Part shown: positions 12,101 through 21,242 of the stretch, in pieces
Numbering within the stretch: the first letter of the stretch is position 1
Layout of the letters: each line of letters starts with the position of its first letter
Virus record (IMG/VR): IMGVR_UViG_3300046665_000091
Location: 1 to 37,802 of that record
DNA: 37,802 bases
Origin: a virus
Reading direction: 5' to 3' (one strand)
Position numbers and translations under genes: made by a program
Notes under the pieces: generated by a model
Told to the model about the DNA's origin: nothing
Seen by the model: only the letters and a program-made list of their open reading frames with translations
The model's database searches: none

Positions 12101-13403
12101 AAACGCCTGCCAATTTTGAGGAGATAGAAAATGAGCCAAAAGATTCTTGAATATCTTCTACACGCTGACCAAGGCGATTAGCCATGTCTTCGGTGTAGCG
12201 CATTTCTTCGCCGGTCTTGCTTAAGCTTCCCTCATTTACGGCCAGCAGTGTGCTTTTGAAAGCGTTGAAATTCGTGTTAGCGTCATAAATTGACTTGGAT
12301 AGTGTACCCAGCGTGATAGAGCCAATCAGGGTACGAAATACCGATGCGGCTTGGAACGTACCGCTGAAAGCATTCTCTAAGCCACGAAGGTTCGTTGTCA
12401 TGCCAGCGGCTTGACTTGAGAACTTTCCGCCGCCAATGTTGCTTAAGTTGGTGCGGAAATTATTTAGGAATTTATTAGCCATACCCGCTGCCATACCGAT
12501 CTTTTCGATATAAGCTGCGATCTGAGGGGCGTTGGTTGGTACTTTTAAATTGCCCAACATCTTGACGAAAGATTCGACATTCTTAATCTGAGCCGGTGTG
12601 GGGCCTTTGAAATTAGAGAAGGCCTGAGTAATGGCTGAGATAGAGCTTGTGCCACTGATCGGCTTAAAAGTCGATAGGGCTGAGAAAAGATCACGCAGGT
12701 TCTTAACGCTGGTAGAGCTAGGAGCTTTCATACCAGCTACAGCGCTACTTAAATTAATAATTCCTGTGATCAGCGAGCCATTGATGGAAGCTTTCGCGCC
12801 GCTGTTGTTCAGCGCGCTAAAGAAAGCCTTCATGTTGGAAACAGCTTTTTCAGAAGGGGCGCGGAACCCGCCTAGTGCATCACCTAATTTAGTAATGCCT
12901 GTGAAACTACCTGAGATGCGAAGCAGTGGAGCTACTTCTGAAAGAGAAGTGCCAAATACTTTTAAAGCTTCAATCTTTGAAGCACTTGGGACTTTGAATC
13001 CAGCCATGGCAGCGCTGATCTTGTTTACAGATTCAGCAAAGTTCCCACTAACATTAAAACTGTTTAGCAGGGCAGGAATAGATGTGGCAAATGTGTTGAT
13101 GTTTTTAAGCGCGGCAGGGCTAGGCGCTTTTAGATTTTTAAAAGCGTTACCAATGCTGTTAATGCTCTTAACAGCAGCCGGATTGATATTGATGTTGTTG
13201 AGTTTGCCTAAGTCTTTAGCGAGCTTAGTAAAGTCGCCGCCAGAGGCACCGCCCGCCATCAGTTTAGAGAAAGCAGCTTGGGCCTTGGCGTCTAGGTTGT
13301 CTAAACCTTTATTAATAGAAGAAATGGCCGAAACAAACTTTTTCGCCCCCGCTTCGGCGCGAGAGGCGTCAATTTCGAAGCGTAAGGAAAATGTATCGGC
13401 CAT
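9111..13403 (-). CDS. Tail tape-measure protein
   Basis: 1430 residues, the longest gene here. It sets tail length and is ejected with DNA. The N-terminus is helical and contains five ~44-residue repeats (about 92-311). A conserved tape-measure domain follows (about 355-560: SSEELRRQLGEQLPGSV, ARALGVGTAELQDMLKKGE). Then come hydrophobic helices (about 640-725), long coiled coils, and a Gly-rich C-terminal part with FANGGAF, FANGGL and GLMGEAGPEAIMPLKR, typical of siphovirus tape measures. The last 40 residues recur in the small protein at 2266-2517. The start overlaps the stop of the G-T frameshift product (TAATG), as expected for coupled tail-assembly genes. Confidence 0.96.
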   Translation of the reverse strand: MADTFSLRFEIDASRAEAGAKKFVSAISSINKGLDNLDAKAQAAFSKLMAGGASGGDFTKLAKDLGKLNNININPAAVKSINSIGNAFKNLKAPSPAALKNINTFATSIPALLNSFNVSGNFAESVNKISAAMAGFKVPSASKIEALKVFGTSLSEVAPLLRISGSFTGITKLGDALGGFRAPSEKAVSNMKAFFSALNNSGAKASINGSLITGIINLSSAVAGMKAPSSTSVKNLRDLFSALSTFKPISGTSSISAITQAFSNFKGPTPAQIKNVESFVKMLGNLKVPTNAPQIAAYIEKIGMAAGMANKFLNNFRTNLSNIGGGKFSSQAAGMTTNLRGLENAFSGTFQAASVFRTLIGSITLGTLSKSIYDANTNFNAFKSTLLAVNEGSLSKTGEEMRYTEDMANRLGQRVEDIQESFGSFSISSKLAGVSTEQTRTIFEATITAMTVLHRSSDRTKLALLALEQMMSKGTVSSEELRRQLGEQLPGSVNLMARALGVGTAELQDMLKKGEILSSDALPKFAAEIQRTYGGSLQSALKNSTAQFNLLQNAVYDLEVAVGQGGAMASLAKAIEQVKDSISSPEFLEFADKFGERSGKAIEALGSAFSFLIKHVDTVVNGLKVLLALNIARFLQSFASMVLGSIASGTAWVTNLNLIKYAITGVATTASEASIAVSLFGRAGGAIAGLASGPVGALIIGLGILAASWYASSSSAKEFTEVIRFSKEAMDRYRESVEALSASQIVTEQQKLKTELIDVAQRVEEARGQFELLRRSTDQSLTGGQNTQEYDQLATKLQNIKQYLDETGKSYNQFVMEIASSKFEDGNTAELARGFIELQNVLASAQGEALNAAQKLELIQGVMNHMSSANAVAVMNSVASAAGGMAEAVASAASKANQAIAELNRSKAAAQFSQQYEKADESYQNMVKTINESAKNDPAGAIQAIAQAGQQLKKTYDQIGTSVKAVETATKRHDAADDFNKRIEKYAEGATSASRKVSQLKDDIAALQKVQSKSPDQVAALTAMQTDLIKTQKDIANGGKPKVDHTGGAASSYLDGAAKDTIKYNKAQEALEKQLKKGQITQAEYNKGLAELRDQYGGVLPGSSAFTSDFEKLRNELMPSTTALDEFTQKKQLLDQEFANTGNLQEYTELLTRLKKQYSEAASGGSSPWISGINKGLTDLTKTSEDFTTDVAGAVSNAFNGLEDALTSWVTTGKMDFKSLAQSILGDIARIVIRYTVIQPIIKALSGAFGGMFGGGSSSLGGFDLGGGMSAISTPMTFANGGAFNSGKLIAFANGGLTNGSNNGIVNSPTTFGMSGNRTGLMGEAGPEAIMPLKRAADGSLGVQASGAVQASSSAVFVQPKINLNVINNGTNANASTSTKQNSDGSLDVNVLLEQIKDGVAKDISKGGTSLNKAIEGRYGSSPAAGNKRR
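12471..13130 (-). repeat. Five ~44-residue repeats in the tape-measure N-terminus
   Basis: Residues 92-311 hold five units that begin KAPS, KVPS, RAPS, KAPS and KGPT. Each is followed by a helix with a Leu/Phe pattern (NINTFATSI, ALKVFGTSL, NMKAFFSAL, NLRDLFSAL, NVESFVKML), a short turn, and a second helix ending in Gly-Phe or Gly-Met. Units 1-4 are 40-45 residues long. A weaker sixth unit may precede them (INPAAVKSINSIGNAF). A change in repeat number would change tail length. Confidence 0.8.
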
Positions 13404-14205
13404 TATTTATTCTTCTTTATTTTATTAGCAGCTTCGTCAGCCAATCTTTTCTTTTTGTCTTTTTCGTAATAATCTTCTATCCACAGATTATCCAAAAGTT
13501 TTACAAAATCGGAAAAGTCTATTCTCTTCCTATAATCATCAATGCCATATAATTGGCAATAGTGATTTATTTCAGAAAAAGAAATATGCATCGGGCCAGC
13601 CATTCCGGCAGGTCTTGATGAAGAAAGAGTTAAAAACCCTTCCCACACCCAATACAAATCCTCGAAAAGTTGTGGCCCTTCTTCTTGAACTTCCTGTACT
13701 TCTACAGGAAGTCCTTTTTCTTTTCTTACCTTAGCTATCCATTCATTATCTTTTTTGGAGATTTTATTATTGACTTTGGATAGTGAATAGTTAAGGTACT
13801 CTGTTAGTTTTTTTCTGCTTCAGCCTTGTTCTGGACCTTGAACGCGTCATCGTCCGTGACAAGCTTGGCAATTAGGTTGCGGAATTCGCGGTACTTGGTA
13901 AGCTGATCTTCAGCGGCCTTGACAGAGAAAGGAAGGACAGTCTCTTCGTCTTCTTCTGTGAAGCCTTCCCAATCAGCAACAATGGCCTGTGCCATCTGAG
14001 CGATCAATAGGCGTTCCTGATCACCCTGTGGAATGCCTTTGCCGGAACGCTTCATAGCGAGGTAAGGAGCTTCAAGAGCCTCACGGACTTCCTGTGAGCG
14101 CTTGCTCTGGAAAGAGCGAAGCTTGATGCGAGCCTTATCGCCAAGTTCGAACCACTTACCAGTTTCTTCAGATTCAACGTCGGTAGCAAATGTAGAGAAT
14201 TTCAT
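13403..14205 (-). CDS. Tail assembly chaperone G-T, -1 frameshift product
   Basis: The upstream chaperone (13804-14205) ends GCA GAA AAA AAC TAA. The heptamer A AAA AAC in the correct frame is a canonical -1 slippery site placed directly before the stop. After slipping, the -1 frame continues from CTA (13807) without a stop to 13403, giving 133+134 = 267 residues. The T part runs LTEYLNYSLSKVNNK... and ends in a basic KKRLADEAANKIKKNK. The frame between 13807 and 13657 has no ATG and no own start, so the T part needs the shift. The order G, G-T, tape measure is that of lambda and most siphoviruses. Both proteins act as chaperones that bind the tape measure during tail assembly. Efficiency is unknown. 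Confidence 0.88.
13804..14205 (-). CDS. Tail assembly chaperone G (zero-frame product)
   Basis: 133 residues, acidic and helical (KWFELGDKARIKLRSFQ, EGFTEEDEETVLPFSV). It is the in-frame product ending at TAA 13804, one codon after the slippery site. By position and size it is the lambda gpG equivalent, made in excess over the G-T fusion. I did not recognise a specific Pfam domain; the call rests on gene order and the frameshift signal. Upstream lies a terminator hairpin (14256-14289), so the gene is probably reached by read-through or an unseen promoter. Confidence 0.85.
   Translation of the reverse strand: MKFSTFATDVESEETGKWFELGDKARIKLRSFQSKRSQEVREALEAPYLAMKRSGKGIPQGDQERLLIAQMAQAIVADWEGFTEEDEETVLPFSVKAAEDQLTKYREFRNLIAKLVTDDDAFKVQNKAEAEKN
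13807..13813 (-). promoter_or_regulatory. -1 ribosomal frameshift slippery site A AAA AAC
   Basis: Minus strand codons GAA AAA AAC TAA contain the X XXY YYZ heptamer with both A- and P-site tRNAs able to re-pair after a one-base backward slip. The new frame reads CTA ACA GAG and stays open for 134 codons. Downstream sequence is AU-rich and I see no strong stimulatory hairpin. Confidence 0.88.
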
Positions 14206-14255
14206 GTTCGGGATTTCCTATGTTTTTAAATATTTCGGGTTATTAATTGAGACAA

Positions 14256-14289
14256 AAATGGCGGCGGCACCCGACAACCCCCGCCATTT
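14256..14289 (-). terminator. Terminator after the tail tube gene
   Basis: Nine-bp stem AAATGGCGG/CCGCCATTT (minus strand) with a G/C-rich 16-base loop and a T-rich run after it (TTTTTGT). It lies between the tail tube frame extension and the chaperone gene, so it would end most tail tube transcripts. Confidence 0.72.
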
Positions 14290-14316
14290 CCTATTAAGCC
14301 TCTTGGCTTAAATTTT

Positions 14317-14400
14317 TTAACTATTTGTCAGACCGAGAAGTAGCCCGAGAGGCGACCCTGTAGTCCCGCCGCCCCCGCCTGTAGGAGGCGAGACTGGATC
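14317..14400 (-). CDS. Probable +1 frameshift extension of the tail tube protein
   Basis: The tail tube gene ends TGC TCC TGA TCC. Skipping one base at TCC-TGA opens the +1 frame at GAT (14400) and runs 27 codons to TAA at 14317. The peptide is proline/threonine-rich, then five Gly, then SPLGLLLGLTNS. The same ending (TPIGLLLILTR, with a PVVNPPETSG linker before it) is found in the separate 65-residue protein at 17486-17683, which strongly suggests that this frame is translated. A GC-rich hairpin CGCCT-CCTAC-AGGCG lies 8 bases after the TGA and could stimulate shifting. A precedent is Listeria phage PSA, whose capsid and tail proteins use +1 shifts. The zero-frame read-through alternative gives an Arg-rich tail with no similarity. 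Mass spectrometry has not been done, so this remains a prediction. Confidence 0.65.
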   Translation of the reverse strand, partial: DPVSPPTGGGGGTTGSPLGLLLGLTNS

Positions 14401-16258
14401 AGGAGCAGACGTTACTCACGTCACTCCAACGGTCGATTTGGAACATCGTACCAGTGGATGCGTCACGGAAAGCAACGAATTCAAGTGGTTCAACAACGTC
14501 TTGGTCGATACCCTGAGCCGCAATGTTATCGCTTGAGAACTTAACAGCTGGTAGGGTGTACTTGTAAGTATTACCATCAACGTCAGTGAACTTGAAAGCG
14601 AGAGAAGACGTTTCGTGGTTGATGAAGTCGTCATAGAACGGGCTACCAGCTTCGAAATAAGCCGTAACAGTGCCGGTTAGGTTGAAACGGCCTGTACCGA
14701 TACCACGAGCGAACTTAGAACCAACGGCGGGCTGCTGACGCAGTGTAGCATCACCCTGAAGCGCGATTGACTGAAGTGCTGAAGAAAGTTCAACACCATC
14801 TTTTTCAATCGAACCTACGTTGGTCGTAGCGTTCATAACTTCAGTACCAGTTGAGCGAAGCGCAACGTAAGGAGAAAGAGCTAGTTTGGAAACGTTCGTG
14901 ATCTGACGCTTAGTTTCTTTACCTTCGAATGAATACGTACCGGTAACGATGGCACCTGAGCTTACGTCCATTGAGAACGAACCTACGCGTAGGCCGTTGT
15001 GAACGAAGAACTGGTTAACGTCGTTGTAAGCCGATTCAGCGCTGAAGCTCTGAGCCACGATTTGCTGGTGAGGCAGTGATCCGGTCCCGTCAGGGTTACG
15101 AAGCATTGAACCTTTAATAGTTACACCAAGTGTACCACCGTTAGCGTCTGTAGCAGGGGCTGGCGAAACTGTTAGAACATCGTCCGCAACAGAAAGGATT
15201 TTGAAGAAACCACCAGAAGCTAGGCCACCGCTGAAGTTAGTCGTAACAGCGTTGGTAGAAACGTCAGCAAGTGTACCACCAGTTCTACGAAGGTTCGTTA
15301 CAGTAACTGTAGCGGTAGACACAGTAGCCTTGGCCTGAAGACGACCATCAACACGAGCTTGGTTGATAGCAGCGGCAATGTTAGTCGCTGTGGCAGCACC
15401 AGAACCACCGAGCGTTACGATCTGATTACCAGCCGTTGCGCCACCGTCTGAAGACGTTTCGAAAACAACCTGATTCACGCCATCGTAAACCGTGAACGTG
15501 TCGTGGTTAGCAGCGTTGGTCGTGAAGTTAATCGTACCGGATTCTCTACCGGAAGCGTTATCTACATAGATGTTCTGACCGGCGACAAGATTGCCAGCTG
15601 CAATTGCAGCGGCAAAAGCATTTGTACCATTTGAGTCGATAGTAGAAGCGCCGCTAGTTCCGAAGCGAATAGCAGTGTTGTTGAGAATAATAACATCGTT
15701 TGCATCTTGAACCTTAGTAAAAGCAGTACCGGCTTCAACAACAGCTGTAGTTGTTGATACAGTAACTTGAGTTGCGCCGCCAGAAAAAGCAAGAGAAGCA
15801 ACCTGCACATACTTGTTATTCAGCGGGTTAAGAAAGCCCGAAGTCTTGAGACGGCGACCTACCACGAAGTAGTCACGGAAGTCTCCACCAGCAATCGAGA
15901 TGACGTTGTTCGCGGTCCAAGCAACACCAACACCTTTGAAGAAGTCAAACTCCATTGGGCGGCTCCAAAGGCCGAGCACGAAAGCTTGCATCAGAATGTC
16001 GTGAGAACCGGCGCTGAATTCGTAATTAATATCACCGCTTGTAGAGGCCGAAACTTCAACAACCGAGCTAACCATACGGTCGGCACGAAGTTCGTCAGAC
16101 GTGACGGTTTCTTTGGCCGCAGCGAGGGAGTGGGATGTGATACGAATTTCACGAGTCGCACCAGACGCAGGAGTCGTACCCCAAGTCAGGTTATTTTCTT
16201 GAATTAGGCGAATGCTATCGCGGTTACTATCAGCAAAGTTGGCCACTATTGTCTCCAA
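14399..16258 (-). CDS. Major tail tube protein with inserted domain
   Basis: 619 residues in the zero frame. The N-terminus (ENNLTWGTTPASGATREIRI, then TVTSDELRADRMVS and SGDINYEFSAGSHDILMQAF) matches the phage tail tube family with its WGT.P and S.E.R.DR signature. The matching C-terminal half begins near residue 385 (RNPDGTGSLPHQQIVAQSFS). Between them, about residues 185-345, is an extra region with SGTINFTTNA, DTFTVYDGVNQVVFE and AATATNIAAAINQA. This beta-rich module recurs in phage virion proteins and probably decorates the tube surface. The normal family length is about 300, so the gene is enlarged. It has its own promoter (16323-16351) and terminator (14256-14289), consistent with high expression. 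It ends in TGA at a likely +1 shift site. Confidence 0.88.
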   Translation of the reverse strand: METIVANFADSNRDSIRLIQENNLTWGTTPASGATREIRITSHSLAAAKETVTSDELRADRMVSSVVEVSASTSGDINYEFSAGSHDILMQAFVLGLWSRPMEFDFFKGVGVAWTANNVISIAGGDFRDYFVVGRRLKTSGFLNPLNNKYVQVASLAFSGGATQVTVSTTTAVVEAGTAFTKVQDANDVIILNNTAIRFGTSGASTIDSNGTNAFAAAIAAGNLVAGQNIYVDNASGRESGTINFTTNAANHDTFTVYDGVNQVVFETSSDGGATAGNQIVTLGGSGAATATNIAAAINQARVDGRLQAKATVSTATVTVTNLRRTGGTLADVSTNAVTTNFSGGLASGGFFKILSVADDVLTVSPAPATDANGGTLGVTIKGSMLRNPDGTGSLPHQQIVAQSFSAESAYNDVNQFFVHNGLRVGSFSMDVSSGAIVTGTYSFEGKETKRQITNVSKLALSPYVALRSTGTEVMNATTNVGSIEKDGVELSSALQSIALQGDATLRQQPAVGSKFARGIGTGRFNLTGTVTAYFEAGSPFYDDFINHETSSLAFKFTDVDGNTYKYTLPAVKFSSDNIAAQGIDQDVVEPLEFVAFRDASTGTMFQIDRWSDVSNVCS

Positions 16259-16435: not shown

Positions 16436-17479
16436 TTATACTGATACGGTGTGAAGCGTGATGGTATAAACTGAAGCTGAGTTAGGGGTGTAAGCGCCGT
16501 TAGTTACGAGATAGCCGTACACATTGGCTGAGCTTAACTTCATCTGCTTGTTGATGTTAGTCACTTCGCAGTATAGAGTCGAACCTAGATCGGCTGGTGT
16601 TCCCAAATCGATATAACCAAGGAACGAAGCTCTGTCGCCAGAAGGCAAGTCCCAAGCAGCATTGTCAGCCAAAGCGGATGGAGGCGTGACGTTGTAGAGG
16701 TAAAGTCTAAAGTTCGTCATACCAGAAGGAATGGCAGAAACATCGATTTCTAGCTGAGCGCCAGTAATCATTGTTGTTGCACCTGAAACGCCTACAGTTG
16801 CAAAGGTGAGTGCAGCGGCGGTAGGGCCAACAACGTCGTTCGCGGTATAAGCCGTGGTGTCAGCTGGACGAGTCGCAGAAACAGCAACGTCGAAAGCTGA
16901 AGTGACTTGGTTGATCGGAACCGTGGCTTGGTCCGTAGCAAGAACTACAGATAGCGAGCCTGTGCTTGCCTTAGCGCCAATCGAAGTTGGAAGTAGAGCA
17001 ATTAGAGATGTTAAGCGTTGAGCCACGCGCTGTAAACGACCATTGAGACCGCTTGAAGCAGTATCGGAAGCTGGTGCGGTTTCAGTAACGATACCAAGTT
17101 GCGGGACTAGAACGTCATCAGTAGCAGTGGTTACAGCAAGTGATGCAGCAGCAGTCTTTGCGCCAAGCGAAGTTGGGAGCAATGCGATCAGCGATGTGAG
17201 ACGCTGAGCCACGCGCTGTAGACGACCGTTCAGGCCGCTTGAAGCGGTATCAGAAGCTGGTGCAGTTTCAGTAACAATACCGATCTTAGCTTGCACGTCA
17301 TCATCGCTGGCGATAGTGACTGGAAGCGAAGCCGCTTTGTTGCCCTGACCCAAAGTAACATCAGTGGCAGTGCCATCTGGACCTACAGTAAGTTTGACAC
17401 GTTGAATAAGTACGCCGCCTACGTCATCGGCACCGATTGTAACGCCTGTTCCGGGAGTTACTGTGATATTATCAGCCAT
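16436..17479 (-). CDS. Putative virion protein with two identical-type 42-residue repeats
   Basis: 347 residues. Two copies of a segment (residues 67-108 and 129-170) read GIVTETAPASDTASSGLNGR, then LQRVAQRLTSLIALLPTS, and are almost identical in protein but differ at many third codon positions. The motif NGRLQR.AQRLTSLIALLP is common in structural proteins of many phages, often near tail fibre or tailspike genes. The C-terminal ~150 residues form a beta-rich domain (MTNFRLYLYNVTPPSALADN, SFLGYIDLG). Start ATG 17479 has the good SD GAGGTAA, in which the TAA is the stop of the preceding 65-residue gene. Likely a head-decorating, collar or tail-side protein; no specific function can be assigned. 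Confidence 0.8.
   Translation of the reverse strand: MADNITVTPGTGVTIGADDVGGVLIQRVKLTVGPDGTATDVTLGQGNKAASLPVTIASDDDVQAKIGIVTETAPASDTASSGLNGRLQRVAQRLTSLIALLPTSLGAKTAAASLAVTTATDDVLVPQLGIVTETAPASDTASSGLNGRLQRVAQRLTSLIALLPTSIGAKASTGSLSVVLATDQATVPINQVTSAFDVAVSATRPADTTAYTANDVVGPTAAALTFATVGVSGATTMITGAQLEIDVSAIPSGMTNFRLYLYNVTPPSALADNAAWDLPSGDRASFLGYIDLGTPADLGSTLYCEVTNINKQMKLSSANVYGYLVTNGAYTPNSASVYTITLHTVSV
16970..17281 (-). repeat. Tandem protein repeat with synonymous divergence
   Basis: Copy 1 is 17156-17281 and copy 2 is 16970-17095, separated by 60 bases. The encoded 42 residues are identical except for one Leu/Ile, while the DNA differs mostly at third positions (for example GGGAGCAATGCG against GGAAGTAGAGCA on the plus strand). 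This argues for selection on the protein motif rather than recent duplication. Confidence 0.85.
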
Positions 17480-17485
17480 TTTAAA

Positions 17486-17683
17486 TTACCTCGTTAAGAT
17501 TAAAAGTAGGCCGATTGGCGTACCTGAAGTTTCTGGAGGATTAACTACCGGTGTGGGTGGTTTCCTACCTGCTTTTTTGTTTTTCTTCGGAGAAACTTCT
17601 CTAAAGGGTTCTGTCGGTATTTGATCCGTAAACACGATTAGTTTGTTTGCCGGATTATACCTTACTTTTTTTGGTGTTCCCAT
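17486..17683 (-). CDS. 65-residue basic protein with hydrophobic C-terminal motif
   Basis: Small protein: a 30-residue head (MGTPKKVRYNPANKLIVFTD), a basic stretch (SPKKNKKAGRKPP), a proline linker (TPVVNPPETSG) and the tail TPIGLLLILTR. The linker and tail match the predicted +1 frameshift extension of the tail tube protein. Its stop TAA is inside the Shine-Dalgarno of the 347-residue gene (6 bases between the two genes), so the two are translationally coupled. Promoter 17716-17743 lies upstream. No known family. It may use the shared motif to bind the same virion surface or partner as the extended tail tube; that is inference. Confidence 0.72.
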   Translation of the reverse strand: MGTPKKVRYNPANKLIVFTDQIPTEPFREVSPKKNKKAGRKPPTPVVNPPETSGTPIGLLLILTR

Positions 17684-17774: not shown

Positions 17775-19481
17775 TTAAGGAGCCTCGTAACATCCAATAT
17801 TGGCTGTGCCGCCAGCGGATAGTGCGTTGCCAAACAAATCAATTGAGCCTAGATTAATGCTAAACAGTGAGTTAATATTCTGCCCCGCGTTCTTAGCAGG
17901 GGAAGAAGATTGTAATTTATATGGAGCTAGTGCGGCAATGCTAAAGCCGTTGGTGTTCCCAACTGGAACAGTGCCTTGTAATAGTGGATCTCCGCTCACT
18001 GATACGTTAGTGCTTGTGATAGTTTCTTGAGTAGAGAATGCGCCGCGCCAAGCACCAATTGAAGTGTAAGTAGAAGGCCCCCATTTGATCGATACTGAAG
18101 CTACAGTGCTATAAAGATTTCCAATAAATCTAATGGCAGGCGTTAAGCTCGTGGATGAGTTGATCAGCTTTGTCGTCGCGCCGGTTAGATAGAAAATGTT
18201 GTTGCAGACATATGTGGTTGTAAATTTATCTGGATTGGAGAAAACGTAGACACCATTAATCGAAGCAACACTGCTGTAGATCGTGTTATTATAAATAGAA
18301 TTTCCAGACGCGGCTCTTGCTGTTTCCGCCGTGCCCATAAGAATGCCTCCCTTAGTAGTGGGAGCTTGTGTGCCGTCGTTTTCGGAGATATTAAAACGAA
18401 TCGTATTTCCGGTTAGCGCTAATACAGTTGAATCATTATATTGATAAAGTTGCAAACCAGAACCATAATTATCGTGACTGTAGCAAAATTGAACGATGCA
18501 GTTCTGACACCCGCCGTCAATATCAAAACCGCCGCCGTCTGATGTGCCGGTTCCGGTCTTGTTGTGGTGGCTTTCACTGTATTGAATAACAGTGCTGGTG
18601 CAATCGTACATCCAAATCCCTACCGGACCAGATGCATAAGTATTGTTTGCTCCATTATTATATGCTTCGCAAAATTCAATTAATCCACCACTGCACTGAC
18701 CTAAGAGAATACCGCTGCCACAGTGAGAAACAGTAATGCCTGCCTTGCCGGTACAGTTATACGCTTTGCAATTTCTCACGACAGGATTTGTGTGACTCGC
18801 GGCATTAGCTACTAGGCCGTACAGTCCTTGAACCGTGATGCCGTTGCCTACATAATCAATACAATTTCCGGTGCAGTCATGAACAATACAACTATCAATT
18901 AGAGGCGCATCAAATCCAGAAGGAGAGTTGGCAGCATATGCCGTGTCTCCGGTGTAAAGCGCGATACCATCATAGCCATAACCAGAAACATCCAGTCTCA
19001 GAAGAGTTAGGCCTTTTAACTTAGTGCTGCCGAGTTGATCATTAATGCAATAAACGCCAGTCGATGTACTGACAGTTGTGCCGGTTCCAACAAAAATTAA
19101 ATCTTGAACCGTGACGTGGTGTGGATTAATTAGATAAGCGCCTCTATCACTATTACCAGAAGCTTGAATAGTCGCTCTTCCAGTTCCATAAGAGCCAAAT
19201 ACAGTTGCCGCACCGCTGTTGCCATAGTGCTGACCTTCTACCAGACTAAGAGTTCCAGAGAAAGTTGCGCCACCTTTAAATAGCACCCAAGCCCCAGCCG
19301 GGAAGGTGGCTCCGTTTACTTTGGACAGGGTTTGCCAAGGCGTAGAAGGTGACGTTCCGCTGTTTGTGTCTGACCCGTTAGGGTCAACATAATAAATAAC
19401 GGATGGTTGTGAGACGCCTTTTTTCGTCACAGGAGCACTGGAAATGACTGCTGTTTTTGTTTTATTTCTGGCTAGCGGCAT
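17775..19481 (-). CDS. Tailspike, right-handed parallel beta-helix (paralogue 1)
   Basis: 568 residues. The N-terminus (MPLARNKTKTAVISSAPVTK) and the next stretch (KKGVSQPSVIYYVDPNGSDT) lead into NSGTSPSTPWQTLSKV, a common opening of beta-helix proteins. About 400 residues of beta-helix rungs follow, with N-rich ladders (SNPDKFTTTYVCNNIFYLTG, NTIYSS). It ends with the compact SIDLFGNALSAGGTANIGCYEAP module. It probably degrades or binds a surface polysaccharide (pectate-lyase-like fold), but no catalytic residues can be assigned by eye. It is closely related to the next gene (19524-21242) over its whole length, with the best match at both ends, so the pair arose by duplication. A separate terminator before it is not evident. 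Confidence 0.87.
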   Translation of the reverse strand: MPLARNKTKTAVISSAPVTKKGVSQPSVIYYVDPNGSDTNSGTSPSTPWQTLSKVNGATFPAGAWVLFKGGATFSGTLSLVEGQHYGNSGAATVFGSYGTGRATIQASGNSDRGAYLINPHHVTVQDLIFVGTGTTVSTSTGVYCINDQLGSTKLKGLTLLRLDVSGYGYDGIALYTGDTAYAANSPSGFDAPLIDSCIVHDCTGNCIDYVGNGITVQGLYGLVANAASHTNPVVRNCKAYNCTGKAGITVSHCGSGILLGQCSGGLIEFCEAYNNGANNTYASGPVGIWMYDCTSTVIQYSESHHNKTGTGTSDGGGFDIDGGCQNCIVQFCYSHDNYGSGLQLYQYNDSTVLALTGNTIRFNISENDGTQAPTTKGGILMGTAETARAASGNSIYNNTIYSSVASINGVYVFSNPDKFTTTYVCNNIFYLTGATTKLINSSTSLTPAIRFIGNLYSTVASVSIKWGPSTYTSIGAWRGAFSTQETITSTNVSVSGDPLLQGTVPVGNTNGFSIAALAPYKLQSSSPAKNAGQNINSLFSINLGSIDLFGNALSAGGTANIGCYEAP

Positions 19482-19523
19482 GACTGTCTTTCTAAAATTT
19501 TAAATTGTTTTATATGGGAAATA

Positions 19524-21242
19524 TTAAGAGGCTTCGTAGCACCCGATATTTGCAACACCGCCTGCGGATAGGGGATTTCCAAATAAATCAATTGTGCCTA
19601 GGTTGATGCTGTACAGTGTGGCAAGGTCTTGACCTGCATTCTTTGCGGGGGATGAGGACTGCAATTTATAAGCCCCAAGCGCTGCTGCATTGAAACCGCC
19701 TATAGTGCCTACAGGAACTGATCCTACAAACAATGGATCACCAGATACTGATGTGTTACCACCAGACACAGTCTCCTGAGTGACAAATGCGGCTCGCCAT
19801 GTACCTAGACTGGAATATGTGGTCGCGCCCCACTTCAACGAGAATGTCGCTGTGGTATAATAAAGATTACCGACGAACTTAAAAGTGGTATCCGGCGTAA
19901 CGTTGTAGGTGTAGATCAATACGCCAGACGATCCAGTAACCCTTATTATGTTGTTAGCAAAATAAGTGCTTTTTATGAGGTTGTGCGCCGCGCCGATAAA
20001 GTTTACCGCTACGCCGCCAGAAAGGGAAGTCATTATCACATTATTATAAATTTTGTTTCCGGTGTGATCGCGGCCTGTCTCATCGTTACCAATTGTGATA
20101 GAAGCTTTGCCCACAGAGACGCCGCTAGCTCCTCCATCATTCTCTGTGATATTGAATCTAATAATATTTCCCTGAAGCGGATATTGGCCATAAGTAGCGC
20201 CGTCTTCATAGTTGTAGAGAAGATAACCAGCGCCAACGTTGTCGTGGCTGTAATTGTATTGTACCACGCAGTCTTTACAACCACCATCAAGATCAAAACC
20301 ACCGCCATCTGACGTTCCAGCTTCTACGGTGTGAAACGCACTTTCATTATACTGAAGCGTAACGGCTTCGCAGTCATAAATCCAGATGCCTACAAGACTT
20401 CCGCCTGAGCCTCCGTTGTGATGGACATAATTATATGCAATAAGTGAATCTTTGGCCTGCCCTAGCAGGATGCCATTACCTGAATGTGAATTTATAATTG
20501 CTTTGCTTTTACCGATGCAATTGTAAACCGTATTGTTACCTACATAAGCATTGATGACCGTGGGAGGAACAGCGGCTAGTCCGTAGGTGTTCAGAGATTG
20601 TAGCGTGATGCCACAGCCTTGATAAGTGGTGGCGTTGCCGGTGCAATCATGGACAACATTGCCTGTGATCACAATTCCATCAAAGCCTGAGCCAGACACA
20701 TCAGAAGGATTTCCCCAACCAGAGATACCGTTGTTGCCGTATTGCGATACGATATTATTGATGATCGAAACGCCAAGTAGTTTGACGTTGCCTGTAAGCG
20801 TATTCTCAAAATAAATACCAGAACCTGTACCGACTAGAGTGCCGGTGCCACGAAGGTCTAGATCGCGGATAGTTACGTATTGAGGATTAATTGCATACAC
20901 GCCGTGATGGGCATTGGTAGACGCTTGGATAATTGCTTTACCAGAGCCATAAGAACCGAAAACAGTAACTGAGCCCTTTACGCCAAAGTGTTGACCAGCA
21001 GTTAGGGTAAGCTGCCCGCTAAATGTAGCACCACCTTTAAAAAGTACCCAAGCCCCTGCCGGGATAGTTGCGCCACTCACTTTGGAAAGAGTTTGCCAAG
21101 GTGTGGAAGGCGATGTTCCGCTATTTGTATCTGATCCGGCTGGATCAACATAATAAATAATATTAGGTTGAGACACGCCTTTCTTAGAAGCGCCAGCGCT
21201 AGAAGTAATTGTATTATTTGTTTTTCTTCTACCTAAAGGCAT
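19524..21242 (-). CDS. Tailspike, right-handed parallel beta-helix (paralogue 2)
   Basis: 572 residues with the same plan as the preceding paralogue: a short basic head (MPLGRRKTNNTITSSAGASK), YYVDPAGSDTNSGTSPSTPW, beta-helix rungs with repeated N and G residues (VTLQYNESAFHTVEAGTSDG, CVVQYNYSHDNVGAGY), and the ending GTIDLFGNPLSAGGVANIGC. The conserved heads probably attach to the virion, while the diverged middle rungs probably set substrate choice. Promoter 21273-21301 lies just upstream, and its -35 box includes the TGA stop of the tail-terminator gene. Confidence 0.87.
   Translation of the reverse strand: MPLGRRKTNNTITSSAGASKKGVSQPNIIYYVDPAGSDTNSGTSPSTPWQTLSKVSGATIPAGAWVLFKGGATFSGQLTLTAGQHFGVKGSVTVFGSYGSGKAIIQASTNAHHGVYAINPQYVTIRDLDLRGTGTLVGTGSGIYFENTLTGNVKLLGVSIINNIVSQYGNNGISGWGNPSDVSGSGFDGIVITGNVVHDCTGNATTYQGCGITLQSLNTYGLAAVPPTVINAYVGNNTVYNCIGKSKAIINSHSGNGILLGQAKDSLIAYNYVHHNGGSGGSLVGIWIYDCEAVTLQYNESAFHTVEAGTSDGGGFDLDGGCKDCVVQYNYSHDNVGAGYLLYNYEDGATYGQYPLQGNIIRFNITENDGGASGVSVGKASITIGNDETGRDHTGNKIYNNVIMTSLSGGVAVNFIGAAHNLIKSTYFANNIIRVTGSSGVLIYTYNVTPDTTFKFVGNLYYTTATFSLKWGATTYSSLGTWRAAFVTQETVSGGNTSVSGDPLFVGSVPVGTIGGFNAAALGAYKLQSSSPAKNAGQDLATLYSINLGTIDLFGNPLSAGGVANIGCYEAS

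Follow-up and report, generated by a model that had tools for sequence, protein, structure and literature searches.

The window analyzed here is the whole 37.8-kb viral record IMGVR_UViG_3300046665_000091 (37,802 nucleotides [nt]). Its tail tube (major tail) protein gene, on the minus strand, is followed past its UGA stop codon by a 27-codon extension in the +1 frame. We conclude that programmed +1 frameshifting probably adds this extension, which ends in a short peptide tag, to a minority of tail tube subunits, so that the product of a neighboring gene, ORF347, decorates the tail shaft. We hold with high confidence, from sequence comparison, that the +1 coding and its RNA signal are real. Physical docking of the tag on the N-terminal MADN domain of ORF347 is likely, judging from the linkage of tag and MADN genes. 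The elements concerned are as follows.

14399..16246, minus strand: tail tube (major tail) protein gene, 0-frame form, with a GTG start and 615 amino acids (aa).
14398..14407, minus strand: shift site UGC UCC UGA U (P-site codon UCC, stop codon UGA), identical in the window and in the related sequences L002, L003, and L004.
14350..14395, minus strand: H-type pseudoknot starting 3 nt after the UGA; stem 1 pairs 14395-14387 and 14385-14383 with 14374-14372 and 14370-14362, and stem 2 pairs 14380-14375 with 14355-14350.
14317..14400, minus strand: +1-frame extension of 27 codons plus TAA, encoding the peptide DPVSPPTGGGGGTTGSPLGLLLGLTNS, with constraint only in the +1 frame.
14320..14358, minus strand: C-terminal tag GSPLGLLLGLTNS within the extension, fitting G.P[ILMTV]GLLL.[LI]T.
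17486..17683, minus strand: ORF65, a small protein with a second tag, GTPIGLLLILTR, at its C terminus, found only in relatives with the tail tube extension.
16436..17479, minus strand: ORF347, the proposed partner of the tag, whose N terminus is a MADN domain (about 17479-17300) and which also has repeats of ~70 residues and a C-terminal jelly-roll domain.

The 0 frame of the tail tube gene ends in ...SNVCS followed by TGA at 14401-14399, and the +1 frame of the extension stops at a TAA at 14319-14317. An earlier note on this DNA had described the 27 open codons and their own stop, and both are confirmed. The nearest upstream +1 stop lies five codons before the GAT codon with no ATG, GTG, or TTG between them, so the +1 frame can be entered only by a shift. 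This lack of a start codon rules out re-initiation, and the stops that the 0 and -1 frames hold in relatives rule out readthrough and -1 access. There is no homopolymer at the shift site for transcriptional slippage. The +1 frames of other genes in the window remain open for 22-173 codons past their stops, so openness over 27 codons is not informative alone; it is the conservation of the frame that exceeds chance.

Three related sequences, L002 (95%), L003, and L004 (both 92%), retain TGCTCCTGAT and a 27-codon +1 frame ending in SPLGLLLSLTND or SPTGLLLSITNS, while their 0 and -1 frames gain stops. Since L003 and L004 are the same in this region, the window, L002, and L003/L004 make up three distinct sequences, whose extensions differ at up to 24 of 84 bases. 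Compared with random placement of the same substitutions, amino acid differences in the +1 frame are fewer than expected between the window and L004 (8 observed, 13.1 expected; P = 0.003) and between L002 and L004 (7 observed, 13.7 expected; P = 0.0001); the close pair of the window and L002 is uninformative (P = 0.16). The other frames contain stops and give no signal of amino acid constraint. In L005, L006, and L007, the tail tube ends at a 0-frame TAA and lacks the extension. The +1 shift at TCC-TGA proposed earlier is thus backed by a conserved frame and site, and a lack of conservation in relatives, named there as evidence that would count against it, is not what L002 to L004 show.

We searched the aligned 3' region exhaustively for helices. 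The longest ones fully paired in every sequence were a terminator-like stem and a helix of 9 bp that begins 3 nt past the UGA. The latter has two compensatory pairs and is lengthened by three further pairs. Pairing between the loop it encloses and bases 6 nt beyond the stem is possible and gives a pseudoknot with a 12-bp stem 1 and a 6-bp stem 2. All 18 pairs (100% of cells) are kept in the three distinct sequences, four of them by compensatory change; control structures slid along the alignment were 44-61% paired and had no compensatory pairs. Column shuffles matched the pseudoknot at P = 0.0008 for stem 1 and P = 0.0028 for stem 2. One compensatory pair couples two nonsynonymous changes (GTC/GCC with ACT/GCT) and is therefore not due to codon degeneracy. 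RNAfold energies alone give weak support (z-scores of -1.2, +0.1, and -1.0), so the structure claim draws on comparison, not energy. An RNA structure just after the TGA had been anticipated, and this part of the proposal stands; the 5-bp hairpin envisaged 8 bases after the TGA, however, keeps 4 of 5 pairs in L004 and is mutually exclusive with the covarying stem, and the larger pseudoknot takes its place. A terminator had also been placed beyond the extension, and a GC-rich hairpin with a T run is found there.

14254..14291, minus strand: terminator-like GC-rich stem with a T run; the 11-bp stem is conserved in all aligned relatives.

A stem resembling a terminator is visible in L005 and L006 too, and a small hairpin is also present directly after the extension.

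The shift signal closely resembles one known from animals. Most antizyme genes shift +1 at UCC_UGA (PMC5009743), and mouse OAZ1 has the decamer UGC UCC UGA U (PMC10296195) with a pseudoknot 3 nt after the UGA (PMC10296195, PMC5009743). The phage signal, as known from sequence comparison, has the identical ten bases, the same 3-nt spacing, and conservation of both stems. The codon preceding UGC UCC is UGG in antizyme and GUC in the phage, the antizyme signal is read by eukaryotic ribosomes whereas the phage gene is read by 70S ribosomes, and the proteins are not homologous. The resemblance is an analogy in mechanism, not descent. A +1 signal in a bacterial virus that matches the mammalian site over ten bases, at the same pseudoknot spacing, makes the response of 70S ribosomes to an antizyme-type signal directly askable.

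Tail proteins extended by frameshifting have precedents in phages. The tail shaft gene tsh of Listeria phages PSA, A118, and A500 undergoes a +1 shift at CCC_UGA (PMC5009743), supporting the choice of PSA as precedent in the earlier note. Major tail proteins that are extended by frameshifting or carry Ig/FN3 domains display these on the outside (PMC8718954). With Listeria tsh and SPP1 gp17.1*, the present gene would share a minority major tail form extended at its C terminus by a frameshift at the end of the gene (PMC5009743; PMC8718954), and with the Listeria phages a +1 shift at the codon directly before UGA. It differs in its site, UCC_UGA as opposed to CCC_UGA, and in its extension, a 27-aa linker and short tag where the Listeria and SPP1 extensions are described as Ig-like or FN3 domains. 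Here a covarying pseudoknot lies 3 nt after the stop, whereas the element that a review gives for PSA is a pseudoknot in the case of the capsid gene but the stop codon in that of the tail shaft gene (PMC5009743). More broadly, as with frameshifted Ig-like domains, recoding would control how much of a surface module a repeating structural protein carries, and the module occurs on different proteins across phages. The Ig-like module is a folded domain, in contrast to a peptide of ~12 residues with a co-encoded presumed partner, MADN.

The extension had been described earlier as a Pro/Thr/Gly linker followed by SPLGLLLGLTNS and had not been recognized as a widespread phage C-terminal tag tied to a neighboring gene, which is the chief result here. 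The tag GSPLGLLLGLTNS sits at the extreme C terminus, with the stop coming 2 residues after the motif T. A search for similar peptides within the window found the tag of ORF65, and genomes with the extension have exactly two copies each, while no copy occurs in the related genomes G004 and G005. When IMG/VR was scanned for DNA that encodes PIGLLLALTK, 18 loci came up. In nearly all of them the motif lies within a few residues of the C terminus, in mutually unrelated phage proteins of 37 to about 1100 aa, products of small ORFs among them. Thirty-six distinct phage tags give the consensus G-x-P-[ILMTV]-G-L-L-L-x-[LI]-T-[KRYN]. Carriers include a tail completion protein (PF11367), tail hubs like those of gene transfer agents (PF13550/PF23666), a Pam3 gp18-like baseplate plug, and cadherin-domain tail proteins. 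Some proteins hold two or three copies on Gly/Pro linkers, and L111, L116, L120, and L099 have several tags per gene. The chance background is low: antisense matches occur at 1 per 996 kb, and a further 788 kb yielded two matches of a chance-like kind. The match in L118 looks like chance.

A tblastn search of INPHARED with the extension, ORF65, and the L070 tag peptide gave no true matches, a microvirus match being an antisense chance hit, and neither GLLLALT nor PIGLLL was found in open-licence papers. The tag and its partner domain are apparently unreported in the open-licence literature, Pfam, PHROGs, and PDB. Two further occurrences stand apart. In L160 (11805-14840), a tag (MAAGEPLGLLLALTQAS) lies near the N terminus of a 1012-aa protein with a laminin-G-like domain. 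The cultured Rhizobium phage RHph_Y65 encodes the small protein gp324 (L099 7675-7986), which has three tag-like repeats (SLGLLLLLTY, PMGLTLLMTY, and RGLLLLNS), lies directly upstream of a MADN-domain protein, and is a tractable test case.

The gene order in the window is ORF65 (tag), ORF347 (MADN), and tail tube with the +1 tag; ORF347 is directly upstream of the tail tube gene and just downstream of ORF65. We built a hidden Markov model (HMM) of MADN from the N-terminal 60 residues of ORF347. A MADN gene lies beside the tag in 17 of the 18 tag loci (16 by HMM, and a variant in L117 by eye), mostly beginning 1-30 nt past the tag stop and farther away in L105, L107, and L115. The HMM matched nothing in unrelated contigs totalling 124 kb, nor in tail tube relatives that lack the tag, totalling 312 kb. 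Some tags lie away from the MADN gene (the tail tube tag in the window, L107, and L174), and these, with the multi-tag genes, indicate that adjacency does not just reflect translation coupling. The C-terminal domains vary among MADN proteins. That of ORF347 is a confident beta domain in its AlphaFold2 (AF2) model (predicted local distance difference test score [pLDDT] of about 83), and Foldseek matches it to jelly-rolls of viruses, among them chain 7eel_H of the cyanophage Pam1 capsid and 8ke9, a domain of the A-1(L) short tail fibre. Searches with ORF347, MADN, and the tag found no Pfam, PHROG, or PDB match of note, and the PHROG matches of L117 and L119 fall in C-terminal parts. The extension, ORF65, and ORF347 occur together in the window and in the genomes G001, G002, and G003. 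All three are absent from the 185-kb G005, where the tail terminator adjoins the tail tube, and from the examined part of G004, where a different cassette precedes the tail tube gene.

We propose that ribosomes pause at UGC UCC UGA U, held by the UGA and the downstream pseudoknot, and that a fraction slip +1 on UCC (UCC to CCU). The 27 residues gained through the shift would form a flexible Pro/Gly linker with the tag GSPLGLLLGLTN at its end. Plain subunits and a minority of tagged ones, the two forms that had been predicted earlier, would then coexist in the tail tube of the virion. The +1 form may display a flexible dock on the tube exterior, as Ig/FN3 extensions do elsewhere (PMC8718954), and the tag would be a docking peptide for N-terminal MADN proteins, here ORF347 with its C-terminal jelly-roll. 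The efficiency of the shift, which we infer along with virion incorporation and outward display, would then set the number of ORF347 appendages on the tail shaft; ORF65, with the second tag, probably puts ORF347 elsewhere on the virion. We consider it an even bet that this is one case of a phage-wide "snap-on" system, in which a C-terminal G.PIGLLLALTK on many virion proteins docks MADN proteins with varied outer domains and, in this clade, the antizyme-identical +1 signal sets the number of docks. Tag and partner domain appear to be a way in which unrelated phages attach surface proteins, which could help to predict virion appendages and offer a means of display on laboratory phages.

Several observations weigh against this proposal. 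Only three distinct sequences have the extension, and covariation and constraint depend largely on the divergence of the window and L002 from L004. The pseudoknot has a stem 1 of 12 bp, for which its loop 3 of 6 nt is short. Among the signals considered here, the combination of UCC_UGA and a pseudoknot is established for eukaryotic ribosomes only. MADN by itself gives a poor AF2 model (pLDDT 56). Only 22 of 77 MADN loci, many of them redundant, have a tag directly or just upstream (about 25 by eye or with near misses), so MADN is broader than the tag and must have other partners or anchoring modes. Since MADN often occurs without a tag, the tag is short and hydrophobic, and we infer the tag-MADN binding, the shift could be real and the tag serve instead, for example, as a processing or sorting signal or in subunit self-association. 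We think this unlikely, given that 17 of the 18 loci retrieved with the tag as sole criterion have a neighboring MADN gene, that the extension and cassette are gained and lost together, and that multicopy tags on Gly/Pro linkers resemble displayed binding sites.

The remaining explanations deny the shift. The extension is short and the close relatives L005 and L006 manage without it, as might be expected of a relic, a tag formerly in frame that was displaced by an indel and is no longer translated. Selection on +1 codons, however, is still evident where 24 of 84 bases differ (P = 1e-4), the decamer and the motif are kept in all sequences, and the pseudoknot pairs are kept through compensatory changes, making a relic very improbable. 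Slightly less credible still is a structure conserved at the RNA level only, as a terminator, for mRNA stability, or for regulation of the downstream tail chaperone, with peptide conservation as a by-product. The terminator-like stem and the small hairpin directly after the extension speak for such a role, but the peptide independently fits a tag of 36 distinct forms in unrelated phages, which cannot follow from a local RNA fold. We give least credence to an assembly or sequencing error hiding an in-frame tag: these are metagenome contigs, but four separate ones, comprising the three distinct sequences with up to 24 of 84 extension bases different, have the same register and an identical TCC TGA. 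Overall, the earlier interpretation is partly supported, and programmed tagging of tail tube subunits is the reading we favor.

The tail tube protein was identified by matches to PF18906 (Phage_tube_2; E = 2.7e-28) and phrog_290 (E = 4.9e-61) and by its position between the tail terminator and the tail assembly chaperone/tape measure. The listed open reading frame spans 14399-16258 (minus strand), and its TTG start overlaps the Shine-Dalgarno sequence. The Shine-Dalgarno sequence and GTG start (TTTGGAG...GTGGCCAAC) are kept in L002 to L006, placing the start at GTG 16246 and giving predicted forms of 615 and 642 aa, the latter heavier by 2.4 kDa; these values replace the 619 residues and ~2.5 kDa given previously. 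Tail tube relatives in named phages (223 records) are under 60% identity, and a scan of genome contigs turned up only a distant locus in a Roseomonas metagenome-assembled genome.

The inserted cassette also includes a pair of larger genes.

17775..21242, minus strand: pair of paralogous beta-helix-like proteins that synteny assigns to the same inserted cassette; PF13229 at E = 4.6e-8 for 17775-19481.

The two proteins (17775-19481 and 19524-21242) have similar N- and C-terminal segments, and in G001 and G003 a single locus matches the two of them. The site before the tail tube gene seems to exchange cassettes; in G004 (L005 30-2000), it holds a different small open reading frame (ORF) and a 576-codon open frame. 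Among the MADN loci, two large redundant contig groups (L147-L156 and L157-L204) encode a MADN protein and no tag, and MADN there directly follows a large protein with a Pro-rich C terminus (638 aa mostly) or a protein ending in IFSFTVA (143 aa mostly). ORF347-like jelly-roll proteins lacking MADN occur in L100 (7307-7702), L101 (7673-7816), and L071 (5733-5933), and the small ORFs before them end in PSL.FS...NSQYIGQV or a similar sequence; these ends may form a second class of tag that goes with a different N-terminal domain. Downstream of the tail tube, the tail assembly chaperone gene (13403-14205, minus strand) ends in AAA AAC TAA within an A-run, and its -1 frame is open for 134 codons and overlaps the next ORF, making a classical -1 frameshift of the lambda G/GT type probable.
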